This document shows, in pieces, positions 36,624 to 61,545 of a DNA stretch of 64,000 bases. The notes below the pieces were generated by a model. That model had not been told where the DNA came from and did no database searches. It worked only from the letters and a program-made list of their open reading frames with translations. The number at the start of each line of letters is the position of its first letter. Position 1 is the stretch's first letter. The DNA is from Desulforamulus hydrothermalis Lam5 = DSM 18033 (GTDB lineage: Bacteria > Bacillota > Desulfotomaculia > Desulfotomaculales > Desulfotomaculaceae), in the NCBI RefSeq assembly GCF_000315365.1, contig NZ_CAOS01000009.1, positions 62,001 to 126,000 on the forward strand, given 5' to 3'. The translations under genes were made by a program, and so were the position numbers.

Positions 36624-36698
36624 GCGGAAGTGGCTCAGTGGTAGAGCATCGCCTTGCCAAGGCGAGGGTCGCGGGTTCGAATCCCGTCTTCCGCTCCA
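36624..36698 (+). tRNA. tRNA-Gly (GCC), third copy
   Basis: Identical to the genes at 33332 and 35250, with encoded CCA. Confidence 0.96.
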
Positions 36699-36706
36699 GC
36701 AATTGC

Positions 36707-36783
36707 GGAGCTGTGGTGTAGAGGCCTAACATGCCTGCCTGTCACGCAGGAGATCGCGGGTTCGACTCCCGTCAGCTCCGCCA
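36707..36783 (+). tRNA. tRNA-Asp (GTC), second copy
   Basis: Identical to the gene at 33156, with encoded CCA. Confidence 0.96.
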
Positions 36784-36794
36784 AATTTTGTTTA

Positions 36795-36823
36795 TTGACA
36801 AAAATCAATATAATTGTTATACT
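36795..36823 (+). promoter_or_regulatory. sigma-A promoter of tRNA-Leu
   Basis: TTGACA, 17 bases, TATACT; 24 bases before the tRNA. Confidence 0.8.
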
Positions 36824-36847
36824 GTTTAAGCTAAGGTATAAATATTT

Positions 36848-36936
36848 GCCCGGGTGGCGGAATAGGCAGACGCACAGGACTTAAAATCCTGCGGGTAGCG
36901 ATACCCGTGCCGGTTCGACCCCGGCTCCGGGCACCA
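36848..36936 (+). tRNA. tRNA-Leu (TAA)
   Basis: 89-base class II tRNA: acceptor GCCCGGG/TCCGGGC, anticodon loop with TAA (ACTTAAAAT), variable arm CGGGTAGCGATACCCG, T-loop TTCGACC and encoded CCA. It is the likely attachment target: the prophage integrase gene begins within 50 bases of its 3' end. Confidence 0.95.
36910..36936 (+). other. probable attL core within the tRNA-Leu 3' end
   Basis: Tyrosine integrases of this type usually recombine in the T-arm/3' end of a tRNA, which the phage att site restores. The matching attR is outside the window, so the exact core cannot be fixed. Confidence 0.4.
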
Positions 36937-36977: not shown

Positions 36978-38069
36978 TTAATTTTGCTTTTGACCAGCGT
37001 TTTGACCACCGCGAAGGTACTGGTCTATTTTTTCTACTACTGCTACATCTCCCTTTGGACGTATATGTTGGTATTTTGATGTCATTGTAATATTGCTGTG
37101 GCCAAGCCTATTTTGTACATGCCGTATATCTATATCTGCATCTAACATTAGTGTTGCATGGAAGTGTCTTAAATCATGGAACCTTATATGTGGGAGCTTG
37201 TTAGAAGCTAGGAAGTTTTTAAAGCGGTGAGAATAATTACCTGGATGACTAGGGTTGCCGTCGTTTGATATTACATAACCTATGGATTTTTTAACAGCTA
37301 AAACTTTTAAAACATCAGCAGGGACCGAAATGGTTCTTGCTGACTTTTTTGTTTTTGGTGGTTTTACTTCTAGGCCGCCAGAGACAGGAACAACAACCTG
37401 TCGAATGGTTAAGGTAGAATTTTTAAAGTCAATATCATTCCATGTGAGTCCGAATACTTCTTCCCTTCGAAGGCCACACATGCCAGCCAAAAGAACAGGT
37501 ATTTCGTGCTCAGTATTTCTTGCTGCATCTAATATTGCATAAAACTGTGACACATCAGGCACGGTTATTTCAAAATCATCAGGGCTAGGTGGATCTACTA
37601 AGGAGCATGGGTTAGTAGGTATTAACCCGTTTTTTACTGCATGCTTCAAGGCCCTTGAAAAGATTCGATGTATCTGCAATATTGTTTTCTCTGAATATTC
37701 CTTCTCTCTTTCGTAATTATAAAATTCCTCGATGTGTATTGGTCGGAGGTTTTTAAGTTTTTTGCCCTTGAAATATGGGATAATATGATTGTCAATGTAT
37801 CTTTTATATCCTTCTTTAGTAGTTGTTTCTAATTTTTTGCAATATACCGAGAACCATTGCTCTAAATATGCGTCAATTGTGAGCTTCCCTGCATCAGCAA
37901 ATGTTCCAGTTTGAAGTTGATATATTATATCGTTTACTAGCTTTTGACATTCTTGCCTCTTGCTAGCATATACATATTTCTGTCTACGCTTCCCAGTAAT
38001 AGGGTCTGGTGGTAACTCTACTCGGCCTTCCCATCTTCCATCTTTCCGTTTACGAACCAATCCTTTCAT
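36978..38069 (-). CDS. int: phage tyrosine integrase
   Basis: 363 residues. The N-terminal Arm-binding domain (GLVRKRKDGRWEGRVELP) is followed by a SAM-like core-binding domain (about 60-160, TIDAYLEQWFSVYC). The catalytic domain has Arg in LAGMCGLRREEVFGLTWND (about 198), the H-x-L-R box HDLRHFHATLML (about 298-309) with His in LGHSNITMTSKYQH (about 325) and the nucleophile Tyr in that stretch. It catalyses site-specific recombination at the adjacent tRNA-Leu. It abuts the repressor gene (one-base overlap), so both may be expressed from the lysogenic promoter. Confidence 0.93.
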   Translation of the reverse strand: MKGLVRKRKDGRWEGRVELPPDPITGKRRQKYVYASKRQECQKLVNDIIYQLQTGTFADAGKLTIDAYLEQWFSVYCKKLETTTKEGYKRYIDNHIIPYFKGKKLKNLRPIHIEEFYNYEREKEYSEKTILQIHRIFSRALKHAVKNGLIPTNPCSLVDPPSPDDFEITVPDVSQFYAILDAARNTEHEIPVLLAGMCGLRREEVFGLTWNDIDFKNSTLTIRQVVVPVSGGLEVKPPKTKKSARTISVPADVLKVLAVKKSIGYVISNDGNPSHPGNYSHRFKNFLASNKLPHIRFHDLRHFHATLMLDADIDIRHVQNRLGHSNITMTSKYQHIRPKGDVAVVEKIDQYLRGGQNAGQKQN

Positions 38070-38395
38070 TAATGCTCCTCCTTATTAAGCAAGTATTGAG
38101 CATAAGAATACAGTTCTTTCCTTTTATCAGGTGAAAGTGAGTTAAAAATTTCCAATAATTCATTAGATGTTAACTCAGGGTATCTTTCGTCACTATACCC
38201 TATGAGCCAGTTAAAGTCGCAATTAAAAAACTTTGCAATAGCCTTTACATTAGAGAGTTTTGGTTCCCTTAGGCCGTTTTCGTATTTGTGTATAGTCCCT
38301 TTGGTTGTTCCTGTGCCTTGGGCAACCTCTTCTAGGGTAAGTTTCTTCTCCTCGCGGAGCAAACGGAGTCTTTGTCCAAACTTTTCTTTCAACAT
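38069..38395 (-). CDS. CI-like repressor, XRE family, no peptidase domain
   Basis: 108 residues from ATG 38395 (GGAGAG upstream). HTH_3 domain at residues 6-62 (LRLLREEKKLTLEEVAQGTGTTKGTIHKYENG). The short C-terminal region (SNELLEIFNSLSPDKRKELYSYAQYLL) could mediate dimerisation. It lacks an S24 peptidase domain, so it should not be cleaved by RecA; induction must use another route, such as an anti-repressor or proteolysis. It is divergent from the cro-like gene. Confidence 0.85.
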   Translation of the reverse strand: MLKEKFGQRLRLLREEKKLTLEEVAQGTGTTKGTIHKYENGLREPKLSNVKAIAKFFNCDFNWLIGYSDERYPELTSNELLEIFNSLSPDKRKELYSYAQYLLNKEEH

Positions 38396-38445
38396 TTTAC
38401 TCTCCAAAGCAATATACCACCTTTCGAAATCAGTATATCAATAGT

Positions 38446-38539
38446 GTAGCCAAAAAGCAATAATTTGTATCCAAAAAGACAAAAAAATAATTGACACAAA
38501 TAGGTGCCCGTGTTACCCTATAAGTATCCAAAAGGAAAC
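38446..38539. promoter_or_regulatory. phage switch region: operators and early promoter
   Basis: The palindrome GTATCC-AAAA-GGAAAC lies at 38524-38539. Half or degenerate copies occur as GTATCCAAAAAGAC at 38467 and GTAGCCAAAAAGCA at 38446. TTGACA at 38491-38496, 17 bases, TACCCT at 38514-38519 makes a candidate rightward promoter overlapping the operator. Binding by the CI- and Cro-like proteins is inferred. Confidence 0.55.
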
Positions 38540-38569
38540 AGGCAAAATGGTGCGAGGGGAGGAAAAGTA

Positions 38570-38782
38570 ATGGCAAAAAAACAAAGGAAACCGCATCTTA
38601 AACTGAAGGCGTTTAGAGTAGAAAGAGCTCTGACGCAAGAAGATATGGCTAAAAGAATAGGAATATCCATCAATGCCTATATCCTAAAGGAAAACGGATA
38701 TCGGGATTTTACCCTTTCAGAGGTTGCAGCTATGGTTAATGAGTTTTCTTTGGATCCTAATAAGATATTTTTTTGTGATTAA
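38570..38782 (+). CDS. Cro-like XRE regulator
   Basis: 70 residues from ATG 38570 behind GAGGGGAGG. One HTH_3 domain (FRVERALTQEDMAKRIGISINAYILKENG...SEVAAMVNEFSLDPNKIFF). First rightward gene of the prophage. Small size and divergent position fit Cro. Confidence 0.85.
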   Translation: MAKKQRKPHLKLKAFRVERALTQEDMAKRIGISINAYILKENGYRDFTLSEVAAMVNEFSLDPNKIFFCD

Positions 38783-38783
38783 A

Positions 38784-38799
38784 GTATCCGATTGGAAAC
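38784..38799. promoter_or_regulatory. second operator palindrome after the cro-like gene
   Basis: GTATCC-GATT-GGAAAC, same half-sites as 38524-38539 but a different centre, beginning two bases after the cro-like stop codon. Confidence 0.5.
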
Positions 38800-38831: not shown

Positions 38832-39203
38832 TTGGCAACAGTCCACCCGTTTCCTAATCAGTCAGTCCGGGCTTTAGTCCATTCGGTTATCCAGATGTAT
38901 GCCGCTGGGAAATGGACCCGGCAGCAAATGATGAGCCAGGTCCATGACACGCTCCGGCAGTATGGTATTTCCAGGCTCAACATCAACAACTACAACGTCC
39001 GGATTGTAGAACCAGTTATCACCAGTGCCGGAGTATTCCCGGTGGTCATCATCGAAGGCGGGGAGGTTTCTGCCAGCATCGGTTGCCCGGCCTGCCACTC
39101 CCGGGAGGCCGGTTATCTGGCCGGGGACTCAACAGTGACAGTGATGTGTAGGAGCTGTGGGTGTATTTATCAGTTCAGGGAGAGAAAGGAGGGCTTGAAA
39201 TGA
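38832..39203 (+). CDS. phage early protein with C-terminal zinc ribbon
   Basis: 123 residues from TTG 38832 (GAGAGGTG upstream). The helical N-terminal half contains VRALVHSVIQMYAAGKWTRQQMMSQVHDTLRQYGI. A hydrophobic strand region follows, then CPACHSREAGYLAGDSTVTVMCRSCGCIYQF (about 85-116), a four-Cys zinc ribbon. Probably a nucleic-acid-binding or protein-binding early factor. The next small ORF overlaps its stop by 4 bases. Confidence 0.65.
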   Translation: MATVHPFPNQSVRALVHSVIQMYAAGKWTRQQMMSQVHDTLRQYGISRLNINNYNVRIVEPVITSAGVFPVVIIEGGEVSASIGCPACHSREAGYLAGDSTVTVMCRSCGCIYQFRERKEGLK

Positions 39204-39288: not shown

Positions 39289-39741
39289 ATGCAAGTTAAC
39301 ACATTAGAAACCATGGAAAATCTAAAGGATTTAGCCGAAAGGTTCTTAACTATTTACCCGCAGTTAAAGGCCGCTTTGACTGGCCAAACACAACAAACTC
39401 AGACTGCGGAACCTCAGTACGCGAACCCCGACCAGCAAATTTCTCAGTTTCTTCGGGAGCTCGGCACCCCAATGCATGTAAAAGGCTTTGGTTACCTCAA
39501 AACAGCCATAAAGTTACTGCAGGAAAATGAATCGCTGCTGTTTGCTGTCACCAAAGAACTTTACCCAGCCATTGCCAAGCTACACGATACCACCCCAAGC
39601 CGAGTAGAACGAGCCATTAGGCACGCTGTAGAATTGATGGCTGAAAGATGTAGCCCGTTGTATGCTAAATCGTTTACTGACCAACCAACTAACTCGGAGT
39701 TTCTGGCCTGGTGCGTGGAAAATCTCAAATTTCGAGCATAA
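39289..39741 (+). CDS. stand-alone Spo0A C-terminal DNA-binding domain protein (phage-encoded)
   Basis: 150 residues from ATG 39289 (GGAGGTGAGTA upstream). The N-terminal 50 residues are helical with a Gln/Thr-rich linker; no receiver domain. Residues about 60-148 match the Spo0A effector domain: ISQFLRELGTPMHVKGFGYLKTAI, the recognition region YPAIAKLHDTTPSRVERAIRHAVE and PTNSEFLAW. TTxSRVERAIRHA, the 0A-box-reading helix of Spo0A, is essentially intact. The segment between this helix and PTNSEF is shorter than in host Spo0A as I know it and differs in sequence; in Spo0A this region contacts sigma-A. I infer phosphorylation-independent binding at 0A-like boxes, either regulating phage genes or interfering with host sporulation. 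Confidence 0.85.
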   Translation: MQVNTLETMENLKDLAERFLTIYPQLKAALTGQTQQTQTAEPQYANPDQQISQFLRELGTPMHVKGFGYLKTAIKLLQENESLLFAVTKELYPAIAKLHDTTPSRVERAIRHAVELMAERCSPLYAKSFTDQPTNSEFLAWCVENLKFRA

Positions 39742-50406: not shown

Positions 50407-51630
50407 ATGCTAAGGAGTGGGATAGTGATATCGTTACATACCATGAGGGCAGAAGGCAAGAGTATTCGTGAAATTGCCCGTCTAACGGGGCATTCTCGAA
50501 ATACAGTTCGCCGATATCTCCGGGGTGAATTCTCCCCCGAAAAGGGAACCCGTAAATCTCGTGGTTCCAAGCTTGATCCGTATAAACCGTTCCTGCAGGA
50601 ACGTCTTCAAGAAGGTATCTATAACTGCGAGGTTTTATTCGATCTTCTACGAGAAAAGGGGTATACCGGGGGACGTACCATCTTGAAAGACTATGTGAAG
50701 GACTTCCGTCCTCCCAAACAAGTTCCCGCTGTTCTTCGTTACGAGACGAAACCTGGTGAATATGCACAGGTCGACTGGGGACTGTGTGATTACGTAGATT
50801 TGGACGGTACAGTCCGAAAAGTGCCGGTATTTGTCATGGTATTGGGGTACTCTCGTTCCACCTATATAGAGTTCACTAAGCGTTGTGACATTCACAGCTT
50901 TCTTCGTTGCTTGATTCATGCTTTTGAATATTTTGGGGGCATCCCAAAGGTAATGCTGACCGACCAGATGAAAACCGTCGTACTGGGCATGGGAGATGAT
51001 CGAAAACCTCGCTGGCATCCGCTTTTTGCCGACTTTGCTGCAGCGATTGGGCTTGTTCCAAAAGTATGCAAAGTTCGACGCCCCGAAACAAAGGGAAAAG
51101 TGGAACGAGGCGTTCAATACGTAAAAAACAACTTTCTTCCTGGCAAACGCTTCGTTGATTTACAGGATCTCAATCAACAAGCCCTACACTGGTGCGAGCG
51201 GATTAACCGCCGTATTCATGGAACAACCGGCGAACGTCCCATCGACCGACTCCGTGAGGAAAATCTGTCGCCTATCCCTTCAGCTGAACGATGGGAAAAA
51301 TACTTGCATGAACCAAGACAGGTCAGCCGAGACGGATTTGTTAGCTACGATGGTGTACGATATGGGGTTCCATGGAGGTACAGTGGACGTGAGGGTACCG
51401 TGCGAGAAGTGAATGGGTGGGTGGAAATCTGGGCCGACGGCACATGTATTGCTCGACACCAAAAGGTCTATCGATCCCGTGCAACTGTTTTTTGTGAAAA
51501 CCAGTATGCAGGTCTTACGACTGCTCAAGGATATGCCTATCCACGTCCGCAAGCCCGACAGATTTCATCGCAGCAAGTGGAAGTGCGTTCGCTGGATGTC
51601 TATGAGCAGCTGACGGGGGTGGGAGCATGA
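50407..51630 (+). CDS. istA: IS21 transposase IstA
   Basis: 407-residue DDE transposase. HTH at the N-terminus (KSIREIARLTGHSRNTVRRYLRG, about 18-40). Catalytic triad in VDWGLCD (about 119), LTDQMKT (about 184) and PETKGKVERGV (Glu about 230). IS21 type C-terminal half is present. Overlaps istB by 4 bases (ATGA). No internal stop, so the element looks intact. Confidence 0.93.
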   Translation: MLRSGIVISLHTMRAEGKSIREIARLTGHSRNTVRRYLRGEFSPEKGTRKSRGSKLDPYKPFLQERLQEGIYNCEVLFDLLREKGYTGGRTILKDYVKDFRPPKQVPAVLRYETKPGEYAQVDWGLCDYVDLDGTVRKVPVFVMVLGYSRSTYIEFTKRCDIHSFLRCLIHAFEYFGGIPKVMLTDQMKTVVLGMGDDRKPRWHPLFADFAAAIGLVPKVCKVRRPETKGKVERGVQYVKNNFLPGKRFVDLQDLNQQALHWCERINRRIHGTTGERPIDRLREENLSPIPSAERWEKYLHEPRQVSRDGFVSYDGVRYGVPWRYSGREGTVREVNGWVEIWADGTCIARHQKVYRSRATVFCENQYAGLTTAQGYAYPRPQARQISSQQVEVRSLDVYEQLTGVGA

Positions 51631-52394
51631 TTGAACTGGAACAAGCACGGCTACGTCTCGAGGAACTTGGGCTTCAGCAAGCGGCTCTACTCTTGGATGC
51701 CCATTTGGAAGCGGCAAGTCATGGACAGCCCACCTATCTGTCCTTTCTCAACATGCTTCTAGATGCAGAGATAGCGGAACGTCAAAAACGGAATATGGAG
51801 GTACGCACCAAACTCGCACACTTGCCTTACCGAAAAACGCTGGAGGAGTTCGATTTTGCTTTCCAACCCAGCATTGACGAACGGTTGATTCGAGAGCTGG
51901 CCACGATGACTTTTGTAACCCGACACGAGAATGTCTTGTTCTTAGGGCCTCCCGGAGTAGGAAAAAGTCATCTGGCGGTGGCGTTGGCTGTAGAAGCCAT
52001 CTCGCAAGGGATATCCGTTTACTTTGTCAGTCTCTCGCAACTCATCGAAGATCTGCGAAAAGCTTACACGGAAAACAGGCTGGATAAACGCCTACGCATC
52101 TATATTCGACCAAAGCTCCTGATTATTGACGAAATTGGTTACTTACCGTTTGACAGTTTGGCAGCTAACCTCTTTTTCCAGGTAGTAAGTGCAAGATACG
52201 AGAGAGGGAGTATTCTGTTGACCAGCAACAAGAGTTTCGGTGAATGGGGGGAACTGATGGGCGATCCGATACTTGCTACGGCTATCCTGGATCGGCTCTT
52301 ACACCATTCCCACATCGTCAATATTAGGGGGAATAGTTACCGACTTCGTGAGAAGATGAGGACTGGAGCCTACGGCTCCCCCTCTACCACCTAA
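51627..52394 (+). CDS. istB: IS21 helper ATPase IstB
   Basis: 255-residue AAA+ ATPase of the DnaC/IstB type. Walker A GPPGVGKSH (about 107), Walker B LLIIDEIGYLPFD (about 168), sensor SNKSFGEWGE. It assembles on target DNA and stimulates IstA. Confidence 0.93.
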   Translation: MIELEQARLRLEELGLQQAALLLDAHLEAASHGQPTYLSFLNMLLDAEIAERQKRNMEVRTKLAHLPYRKTLEEFDFAFQPSIDERLIRELATMTFVTRHENVLFLGPPGVGKSHLAVALAVEAISQGISVYFVSLSQLIEDLRKAYTENRLDKRLRIYIRPKLLIIDEIGYLPFDSLAANLFFQVVSARYERGSILLTSNKSFGEWGELMGDPILATAILDRLLHHSHIVNIRGNSYRLREKMRTGAYGSPSTT

Positions 52395-60059: not shown

Positions 60060-61298
60060 TCAATCCTTAACTACAGAGTACCCGTGCCTCCGAGCTATAA
60101 GAATAGCCTGTTCTACTGTGATTTCACGAGATGCAGGAAAAGGTTGCGCTTTCTTATAAAGTTCTGGGTTGTAAGGTTCACCTTTTTTAAGGATGTGATA
60201 AATGGCAGTAAGCAACATTCGTGCAATAGCTATAATAGCACGCTTATGGCCACGCCGCTTTTTGATGGATAAATAGCGGCCCTTGATTTCAGGGTGTTTA
60301 TCACTTTTAACAACAGCGTTGGCGCACTGTACTAAAAGTGGCTTGATATAAACACCGGCACGGGATATGCGAACAGAATGTTTTTTGCCCGCACTCTCGT
60401 TGTTTTGAGGAGTCACTCCTGCCCAGGAACACAAGTGTTTGGCTGTAGGGAACACAGACATATCAGCACCGATTTCTGAAATTATAGCGATTGCAGAAAA
60501 GGGATTTTTGATACCTGGTACAGTGGACACTAAAGTACGTTCCTTGGCATAAGGCTCTGAGAGCGATAGAATTAAGGATTCAAGGTTGGACTTGCACTTT
60601 CCTAATTCGCCATAATGCTGAAGAATAATATTCATTTTTTGCCGCTGTTCCGGTGTAATCATTCCGTCCAGGGCAAGACGGATATCGTCCACTTTATGCA
60701 GCATGGATGAGTGAAGAAGAGGAACAAAATCGAAATCCTTATCATCGGGATTTTCAAGCAAGTAGTCAATGATTCTCATTGAACTCTTACCGAAAGTATC
60801 AGATACCACGTTGGCGAGCTGGATATTTGATACAGTAAGACAATTTTGAATCCGGTTCTTCTCGCTGGAACTAAAGTTTGTGAGCTTAAAACGATAACGC
60901 ATCAAGTCACGCAATTGACGAATTGGAAGGGGTGGCATAAAGCTTCCGGCAACAAGGTCGTGCTTAAACAGGTCGGCAATCCACTTGGCATCCTTTTTAT
61001 CGGTTTTCTTACCGCGAATCGCTTTGACATACTTTGGATGAGCCAGTGTAATTTTACAGGTGGCTTCCAAAATATTGTACACAGGTACCCAATACTTGCC
61101 GGTGGATTCCATGCAAACATGTGTGCAGGAATTGGAGGAAAGCCACTCCGACAGCTTTCGCAAATCGTTTGTGAAGGTAGAAAAGCGTCTGGACTTGTAA
61201 GTGGTAACACCTTTGTCATTGGTAAAGGCAATACAAGCAACAAGAAACTTTTTGTGGACATCAATTCCACAACAGATGGGGTAAACGATTTTTAACAT
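60060..61298 (-). CDS. IS110-family transposase
   Basis: 412 residues from ATG 61298 (GAAGGGAGAC). The RuvC-like DEDD domain has GIDVHKKFLVACI (Asp about 11), CMESTGKYW (Glu about 59) and KTDKKDAKWIADL (Asp pair about 100). The C-terminal Tnp domain has VPGIKNPFSAIAIISEIG and CSWAGVTPQNNESAGKKHSVRISRAG with the catalytic Ser. No frameshift. IS110 recombinases use a bridge RNA from the element itself. Confidence 0.93.
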   Translation of the reverse strand: MLKIVYPICCGIDVHKKFLVACIAFTNDKGVTTYKSRRFSTFTNDLRKLSEWLSSNSCTHVCMESTGKYWVPVYNILEATCKITLAHPKYVKAIRGKKTDKKDAKWIADLFKHDLVAGSFMPPLPIRQLRDLMRYRFKLTNFSSSEKNRIQNCLTVSNIQLANVVSDTFGKSSMRIIDYLLENPDDKDFDFVPLLHSSMLHKVDDIRLALDGMITPEQRQKMNIILQHYGELGKCKSNLESLILSLSEPYAKERTLVSTVPGIKNPFSAIAIISEIGADMSVFPTAKHLCSWAGVTPQNNESAGKKHSVRISRAGVYIKPLLVQCANAVVKSDKHPEIKGRYLSIKKRRGHKRAIIAIARMLLTAIYHILKKGEPYNPELYKKAQPFPASREITVEQAILIARRHGYSVVKD

Positions 61299-61545
61299 TA
61301 AAGTCTCCCTTCGCAAAAAATTATTGAGAAAAGCAGGCATTGACTGACTGTCCAGCTATAAACGAGTTGTTTATACAAAGATAAGTCTTCGTACTCTGAA
61401 GGCACACTTATTTGTGCTTGAAAGGACAGTCTACACATATAAAAATACGGTCTGCTCCCAAAGGAACAGCGCACTCACCTCCACGTGATTTGTAGTTGCC
61501 TGTTATCTCAATAAGATAGTTTTAAAACAAAACAAGCTCATAGGC
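61299..61545 (-). ncRNA. candidate IS110 bridge RNA region
   Basis: About 247 non-coding bases between the transposase start and the element edge. In the IS110 group the bridge RNA is encoded in this place. Short pairing arms are visible, for example CAAAGATAAGTCTTCG and AAGTGTGCCTTCAGAG-type segments around 61377-61410, and GGACAGTC at 61433 against GACTGTCC at 61343-61351. Exact RNA ends and guide loops cannot be set by eye. Confidence 0.4.

Follow-up and report, generated by a model that had tools for sequence, protein, structure and literature searches.

Phage homologues of spo0A reduced to the effector domain were described by Schwartz et al. 2023 in mBio (PMC10294663). In the sections of that paper considered here, gut and environmental phages are named as sources, and it is suggested that phage spo0A may act independently of host signals. 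The isolated DNA-binding domain of Spo0A was found to bind its true targets without phosphorylation (PMC3485338). A literature search, conducted mostly outside subscription journals, revealed no paper with an experimental test of any phage Spo0A. Such fragments are already catalogued, and the subfamily described below bears on whether they promote or block sporulation.

The gene under study is located in a 64,000-nucleotide stretch of the Desulforamulus hydrothermalis genome (hereafter, the window). Like the genes described by Schwartz et al., it encodes an effector domain without a receiver; it is surrounded by prophage modules.

A Spo0A DNA-binding domain in an early prophage operon

The gene encodes a protein of 150 aa (Table 1). 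The start at ATG 39289, chosen in the initial annotation, is preferred over the mechanically called TTG 39217 because it is preceded by the strong Shine-Dalgarno sequence AAAGGAGG. The search with the Spo0A_C profile (PF08769) that had been proposed at that stage was positive, and residues 51–146 matched profile positions 1–104 of 104 with 94.6 bits (E = 4.4e-27; curated cut-off, 25 bits). The TIGR02875 model, an equivalog of full Spo0A, was matched by its C-terminal half alone (model positions 129–257), and the score of 105.9 bits is below the cut-off of 200 bits. No receiver domain with a phosphorylatable Asp, as in the Spo0A response regulator, was found in the 150-aa protein, and the description of the product as a Spo0A DNA-binding domain without a receiver was therefore retained. 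Among solved structures, the best matches are PDB entries 1LQ1 and 1FC3, both Spo0A DNA-binding domains (E = 7e-21).

Modeling using AlphaFold2, with rows from annotated records left out of the input, led to a model with a mean pLDDT of 85.1 and values mostly above 90 in the DNA-binding domain. The model consists of a helix (residues 5–31), a low-confidence linker (about 32–46) and the Spo0A domain. A Foldseek search with this model found 1lq1_D (E = 8e-8, TM by target 0.91, rmsd 1.8). The PTNSEF end is kept, and the recognition-helix stretch TTPSRVERAIRHA is identical to that of the host's own full-length Spo0A (L001), which is encoded elsewhere, on contig C13; the retention of the helix and of the PTNSEF end had been pointed out in the initial annotation. 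The N-terminal helix carries residues conserved in three prophage copies (K13, A16, E17, F19, L20, Y23 and P24). No other convincing match to it was found in nine genomes of the genus, and it is private to these three Desulforamulus prophages. Its role is possibly in oligomerisation.

The surrounding region is a tailed prophage. An integrase and a CI-like repressor on the minus strand are followed on the plus strand by a cro-like XRE gene, a gene for a zinc-ribbon protein, the Spo0A-like gene, small ORFs, and the Gp157 and ERF genes. After ERF, SSB-like and helicase-like genes (both named from sequence) were found, and the terminase, portal, protease and capsid genes lie further on. The Spo0A-like gene is the third in the rightward early operon, behind the cro-like gene, so its placement among the first early genes of a prophage in a sporulating host was confirmed. 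The 16-bp repeat GTATCCNNNNGGAAAC occurs twice in the control region; it would naturally be read as a repressor/Cro site, but the motif was picked from its own two exact copies and its significance is post hoc. The Spo0A-like gene was also found in the IMG/VR contig 2585428063_000002.

Table 1. Features of the prophage early region and of the Spo0A-like gene (window coordinates).
Feature	Position	Strand	Evidence or remark
Prophage tyrosine integrase	36978..38069	-	PF00589 E=6e-24; beside three tRNA genes
Divergent XRE repressor (CI-like)	38069..38407	-	HTH_3 E=6e-17; PHROG transcriptional regulator
Cro-like XRE regulator, early operon gene 1	38504..38782 (start possibly ATG 38571)	+	HTH_3 E=5e-7
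Operator-like repeat GTATCCNNNNGGAAAC, copy 1	38524..38539	.	exact repeat
Operator-like repeat GTATCCNNNNGGAAAC, copy 2	38784..38799	.	just 5' of the 38832 / Spo0A_C gene pair
Upstream neighbour with C-terminal zinc ribbon	38832..39203	+	no Pfam/PHROG match
Receiver-less Spo0A-like protein, 150 aa	39289..39741	+	Shine-Dalgarno; Spo0A_C E=4.4e-27; AF2; 1LQ1
N-terminal helix, residues 5-31	39301..39381	+	AF2; conserved residues
Spo0A_C DNA-binding domain, residues 51-146	39439..39726	+	Pfam profile; Foldseek
Recognition-helix stretch TTPSRVERAIRHA (B. subtilis 207-219)	39589..39627	+	alignments; identical to host Spo0A
Shortened loop RCSPLYAKSFTDQ (B. subtilis ~226-246, sigma-A activating region)	39646..39684	+	alignments
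Codon for Val143 (A257 of B. subtilis Spo0A)	39715..39717	+	alignment

Several further elements were noted in the prophage. Genes for tRNA-Gly, tRNA-Asp and tRNA-Leu (36624–36936) directly adjoin the integrase gene, and this cluster is a likely attachment site. An IS21-like element (rve/Mu C-terminal; 50407–52394) and an IS110-family transposase gene (60060–61340) are located inside the prophage, which may therefore be defective. The small zinc-ribbon protein occupies the same early slot in several prophages of the order, with or without a Spo0A-like gene (L131–L133).

The activating loop and position 257

In B. subtilis Spo0A, mutations at positions 227–240 reportedly abolish sigma-A activation, a result attributed to Hatt and Youngman and to Buckner et al., 1998. 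The corresponding loop RCSPLYAKSFTDQ of the prophage protein is eight residues shorter than in the host Spo0A; G227 is replaced by Cys, positions 237–240 are missing, and the sigma-A activating loop is thus not preserved. This agrees with the earlier statement that the sigma-A-contacting region is shortened and changed. Across 30 host Spo0A sequences from the order, the stretch from G227 to PTNSEF hardly varies, the loop itself (B. subtilis ~227–245) is intact, and the eight-residue loss was seen in none of them. The two intact prophage copies share the same loss, and the frameshifted third copy (see below) is one residue shorter still. Among the other receiver-less phage Spo0A_C proteins that include the loop region, all but one keep FGY, FGN or FGG; the exception, L082, has lost more of the stretch. 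Since most of these proteins keep the loop, a loss of activation would not be general to receiver-less phage Spo0A_C.

All three prophage copies have Val at position 257, where every host sampled has Ala. In B. subtilis, the A257V substitution in Spo0A leads to the loss of sporulation while abrB repression is kept (PMC9195935, PMC10782996). A257V is reported to be suppressed by H162R; in Paenibacillus, sporulation is not abolished by A257V. The prophage protein also has Arg at position 162, and V257 was therefore rejected as a stand-alone mark of loss of function. All five aligned sequences with a residue other than Ala at 257 also have a residue other than His at 162, which hints, in these few sequences, that the two positions may be coupled.

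Copies in related prophages, constraint and origin

A search for homologues at the same position in other prophages, suggested in the initial annotation, revealed the gene in the matching interval of early genes in two of the eight other genomes of Desulforamulus (presumably a genus of sulfate reducers), i.e., in three of nine species. The copy in G004 (3,969,014 bp), which we take to be D. ruminis DSM 2154, shows 59% identity along the whole protein, N-terminal helix included, and has the same zinc-ribbon gene as its upstream neighbour. The copy in G006 (3,608,104 bp), presumably D. reducens MI-1, is located on the minus strand (L036:9471–9936). It is split by a 2-nt deletion among the recognition-helix codons, so the protein would no longer bind DNA and the gene appears to be dispensable there. 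Among 113 genomes from the order and 399 from the phylum, no further intact member of the subfamily was found, and scans of genome contigs with the chosen peptide patterns revealed no further relative.

Comparison of the two intact copies gave a saturated synonymous difference (about 0.84–0.85) and a nonsynonymous difference of 0.26 for the whole protein and 0.20 for the DNA-binding domain; therefore, the protein has been kept by selection. In the phylogenetic tree, the prophage copies have a long branch and fall outside the clade of the host order (support 96/98). This placement disfavours capture from the present host, and the prophage lineage appears to be old or fast-changing and not a recent acquisition, subject to the usual caveats for long branches.

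A separate observation concerns the host spo0A of another genome of the genus, G007. The last 125 bp of this gene are repeated with 96% identity about 19 kb downstream (L037:1808–3715, L038:2414–2538), and part of a tyrosine recombinase gene lies just past the complete 3' end. It seems that a genomic island inserted into the 3' end of spo0A, which was regenerated in the process. The upstream spo0A contains a frameshift near L037:2317, possibly an error of assembly (the genome is 72% complete).

Proposed role and comparison with known systems

The reading that we prefer, with a probability of about 0.5, is that the protein is a phosphorylation-independent, activation-defective binder of 0A boxes, which would compete with host Spo0A~P and prevent an infected or induced cell from entering sporulation during phage replication. 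Judging by the gene order, the domain would be produced early in lytic growth. It would bind host 0A boxes without being phosphorylated, and TTTGTCGAA is a candidate probe sequence for such binding. The specificity of the host's own Spo0A is expected because the recognition helix is identical, and recruitment of sigma-A RNA polymerase is not expected because the activating loop has been cut away. Competition could take place at sporulation promoters, perhaps including the promoter of host spo0A itself, and, more speculatively, the N-terminal helix may stand in for the receiver as a dimerisation aid. It is put forward only tentatively, as possible rather than probable, that the protein is a natural dominant-negative form of a master regulator, a DNA-binding domain minus its phosphorylation switch and polymerase-activating loop that holds 0A boxes early in infection and prevents the host from sporulating. 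The frameshift in the recognition helix of the G006 copy and the presence of the gene in a minority of the species count against the preferred reading.

The initial annotation had allowed the protein either to interfere with the sporulation decision or to tie the entry of the phage into spores to the state of the host. The second option fits less well, because a gene that follows a cro-like gene and a predicted operator for the repressor would be expected to be silent in a lysogen. Blocking the decision seems to fit the anatomy best.

The distribution of candidate targets was also evaluated. A single TGTCGAA, the 0A core, was counted in the prophage portion of the window, against 2.3 expected, and no excess was found in the other prophage stretches (three in all). 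A search for a 0A-box regulon inside the prophage was negative. Two TGTCGAA motifs are present in the host spo0A promoter, at -150 and -81, and both are kept in a sister species (-150 and -82). Together with the lack of enrichment in the prophages, this slightly favours host promoters as the putative targets. Unlike the prophage, the chromosomal stretch of the window (1–36900) contains seven TGTCGAA motifs, with 2.3 expected.

The absence of 0A-box enrichment from all three prophage stretches, despite an unchanged recognition helix, also speaks against a captured helix-turn-helix domain that regulates the phage's own operators and is unrelated to sporulation. The GTATCCNNNNGGAAAC repeat of the control region differs from the 0A box as well and is more readily attributed to the XRE regulators. 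This explanation is unlikely, even though it would agree with the location among early regulatory genes, with the frequency of captured domains of this type among phage regulators, with the long-branched, old phage lineage and with the occurrence of the zinc-ribbon neighbour in prophages that have no Spo0A-like gene. A constitutively active Spo0A that drives sporulation, bringing phage DNA into spores or altering host physiology, would be plausible for the loop-retaining relatives (L081, L084–L097). Loss of the receiver removes an inhibitory contact (PMC3485338), and action without host signals was suggested in the considered sections of PMC10294663. However, this subfamily has no activating loop, position 257 is changed and the gene sits in an early lytic operon, which makes such a role improbable here.

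We give as little credence to a decaying leftover without a present role. The frameshifted G006 copy, the two IS elements within the prophage and the patchy presence of the gene would be consistent with decay, but the reading frame in the window is intact with a good ribosome-binding site, the N-terminal helix is conserved and the excess of synonymous over nonsynonymous difference is strong. Host Spo0A binds near oriC in B. subtilis, and the protein might silence replication of the host chromosome by occupying such sites. Although the gene belongs to an operon of recombination and replication genes, no cluster of 0A boxes was found near the phage replication genes, and a replication target is considered very improbable.

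If the preferred reading is true, a small genetically encoded inhibitor of sporulation would be gained. The subfamily offers a clean test because the DNA-reading helix is intact while the activating surface is gone, and a comparison with the loop-keeping phage proteins would show whether both blockers and drivers have evolved from one domain. IMG/VR contains roughly a dozen other receiver-less Spo0A_C proteins, and their N-termini vary. In two of them (L084:4776–5351 and L085:4806–5351), the receiver is replaced by a cysteine-rich N-terminal segment, possibly a metal-binding sensor. The same domain occurs in viral proteins annotated in BFVD as "Spo0A C terminal" (e.g., A0A8S5NMK9 and A0A8S5TVN9) and in PHROGs 24603 and 37855, at 17–30% identity to the prophage protein in structural alignment. 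The six matches from a tblastn search of INPHARED in which this region was read out (MT835504, MT836727, MT835781, MT835715, MT835718 and MT836771) encode both the receiver and the DNA-binding domain and were rejected as phage relatives. These unverified fecal scaffolds, named "Bacteriophage sp.", look bacterial because they encode full-length Spo0A, and surveys of phage spo0A should leave them out. Four plasmid matches were also set aside; the three that were examined are annotated as full-length Spo0A.

The prophage protein shares the DNA-binding fold and the identical recognition helix with host Spo0A (TIGR02875, 1LQ1/1FC3) but differs from it in lacking the receiver and the hinge and in its shortened activating loop. 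With the B. subtilis A257V mutant it shares Val at 257, whereas it also has R162, the reported suppressor, and has lost the loop. Phage sigF/sigG-like sporulation sigma factors lower spore yield when expressed (Schwartz 2022, as cited in the considered sections of PMC10294663). They too are phage-carried copies of sporulation regulators, but as described there they activate sporulation transcription, while the protein described here would block Spo0A-dependent entry. The closest match is the truncated spo0A of Schwartz et al. 2023 (PMC10294663), which, in the sections considered, is likewise phage-borne, limited to the effector domain and associated with spore-forming hosts. The novelty of a receiver-less phage Spo0A therefore does not stand, while the loop loss, V257 and the N-terminal helix were not found in those sections. 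Thus, the protein belongs to an already published kind, from most members of which found here, with their FGYT loop kept, its subfamily is set apart by the missing eight loop residues, V257 and the private N-terminal helix; the loop loss and this helix make it a distinct variant.
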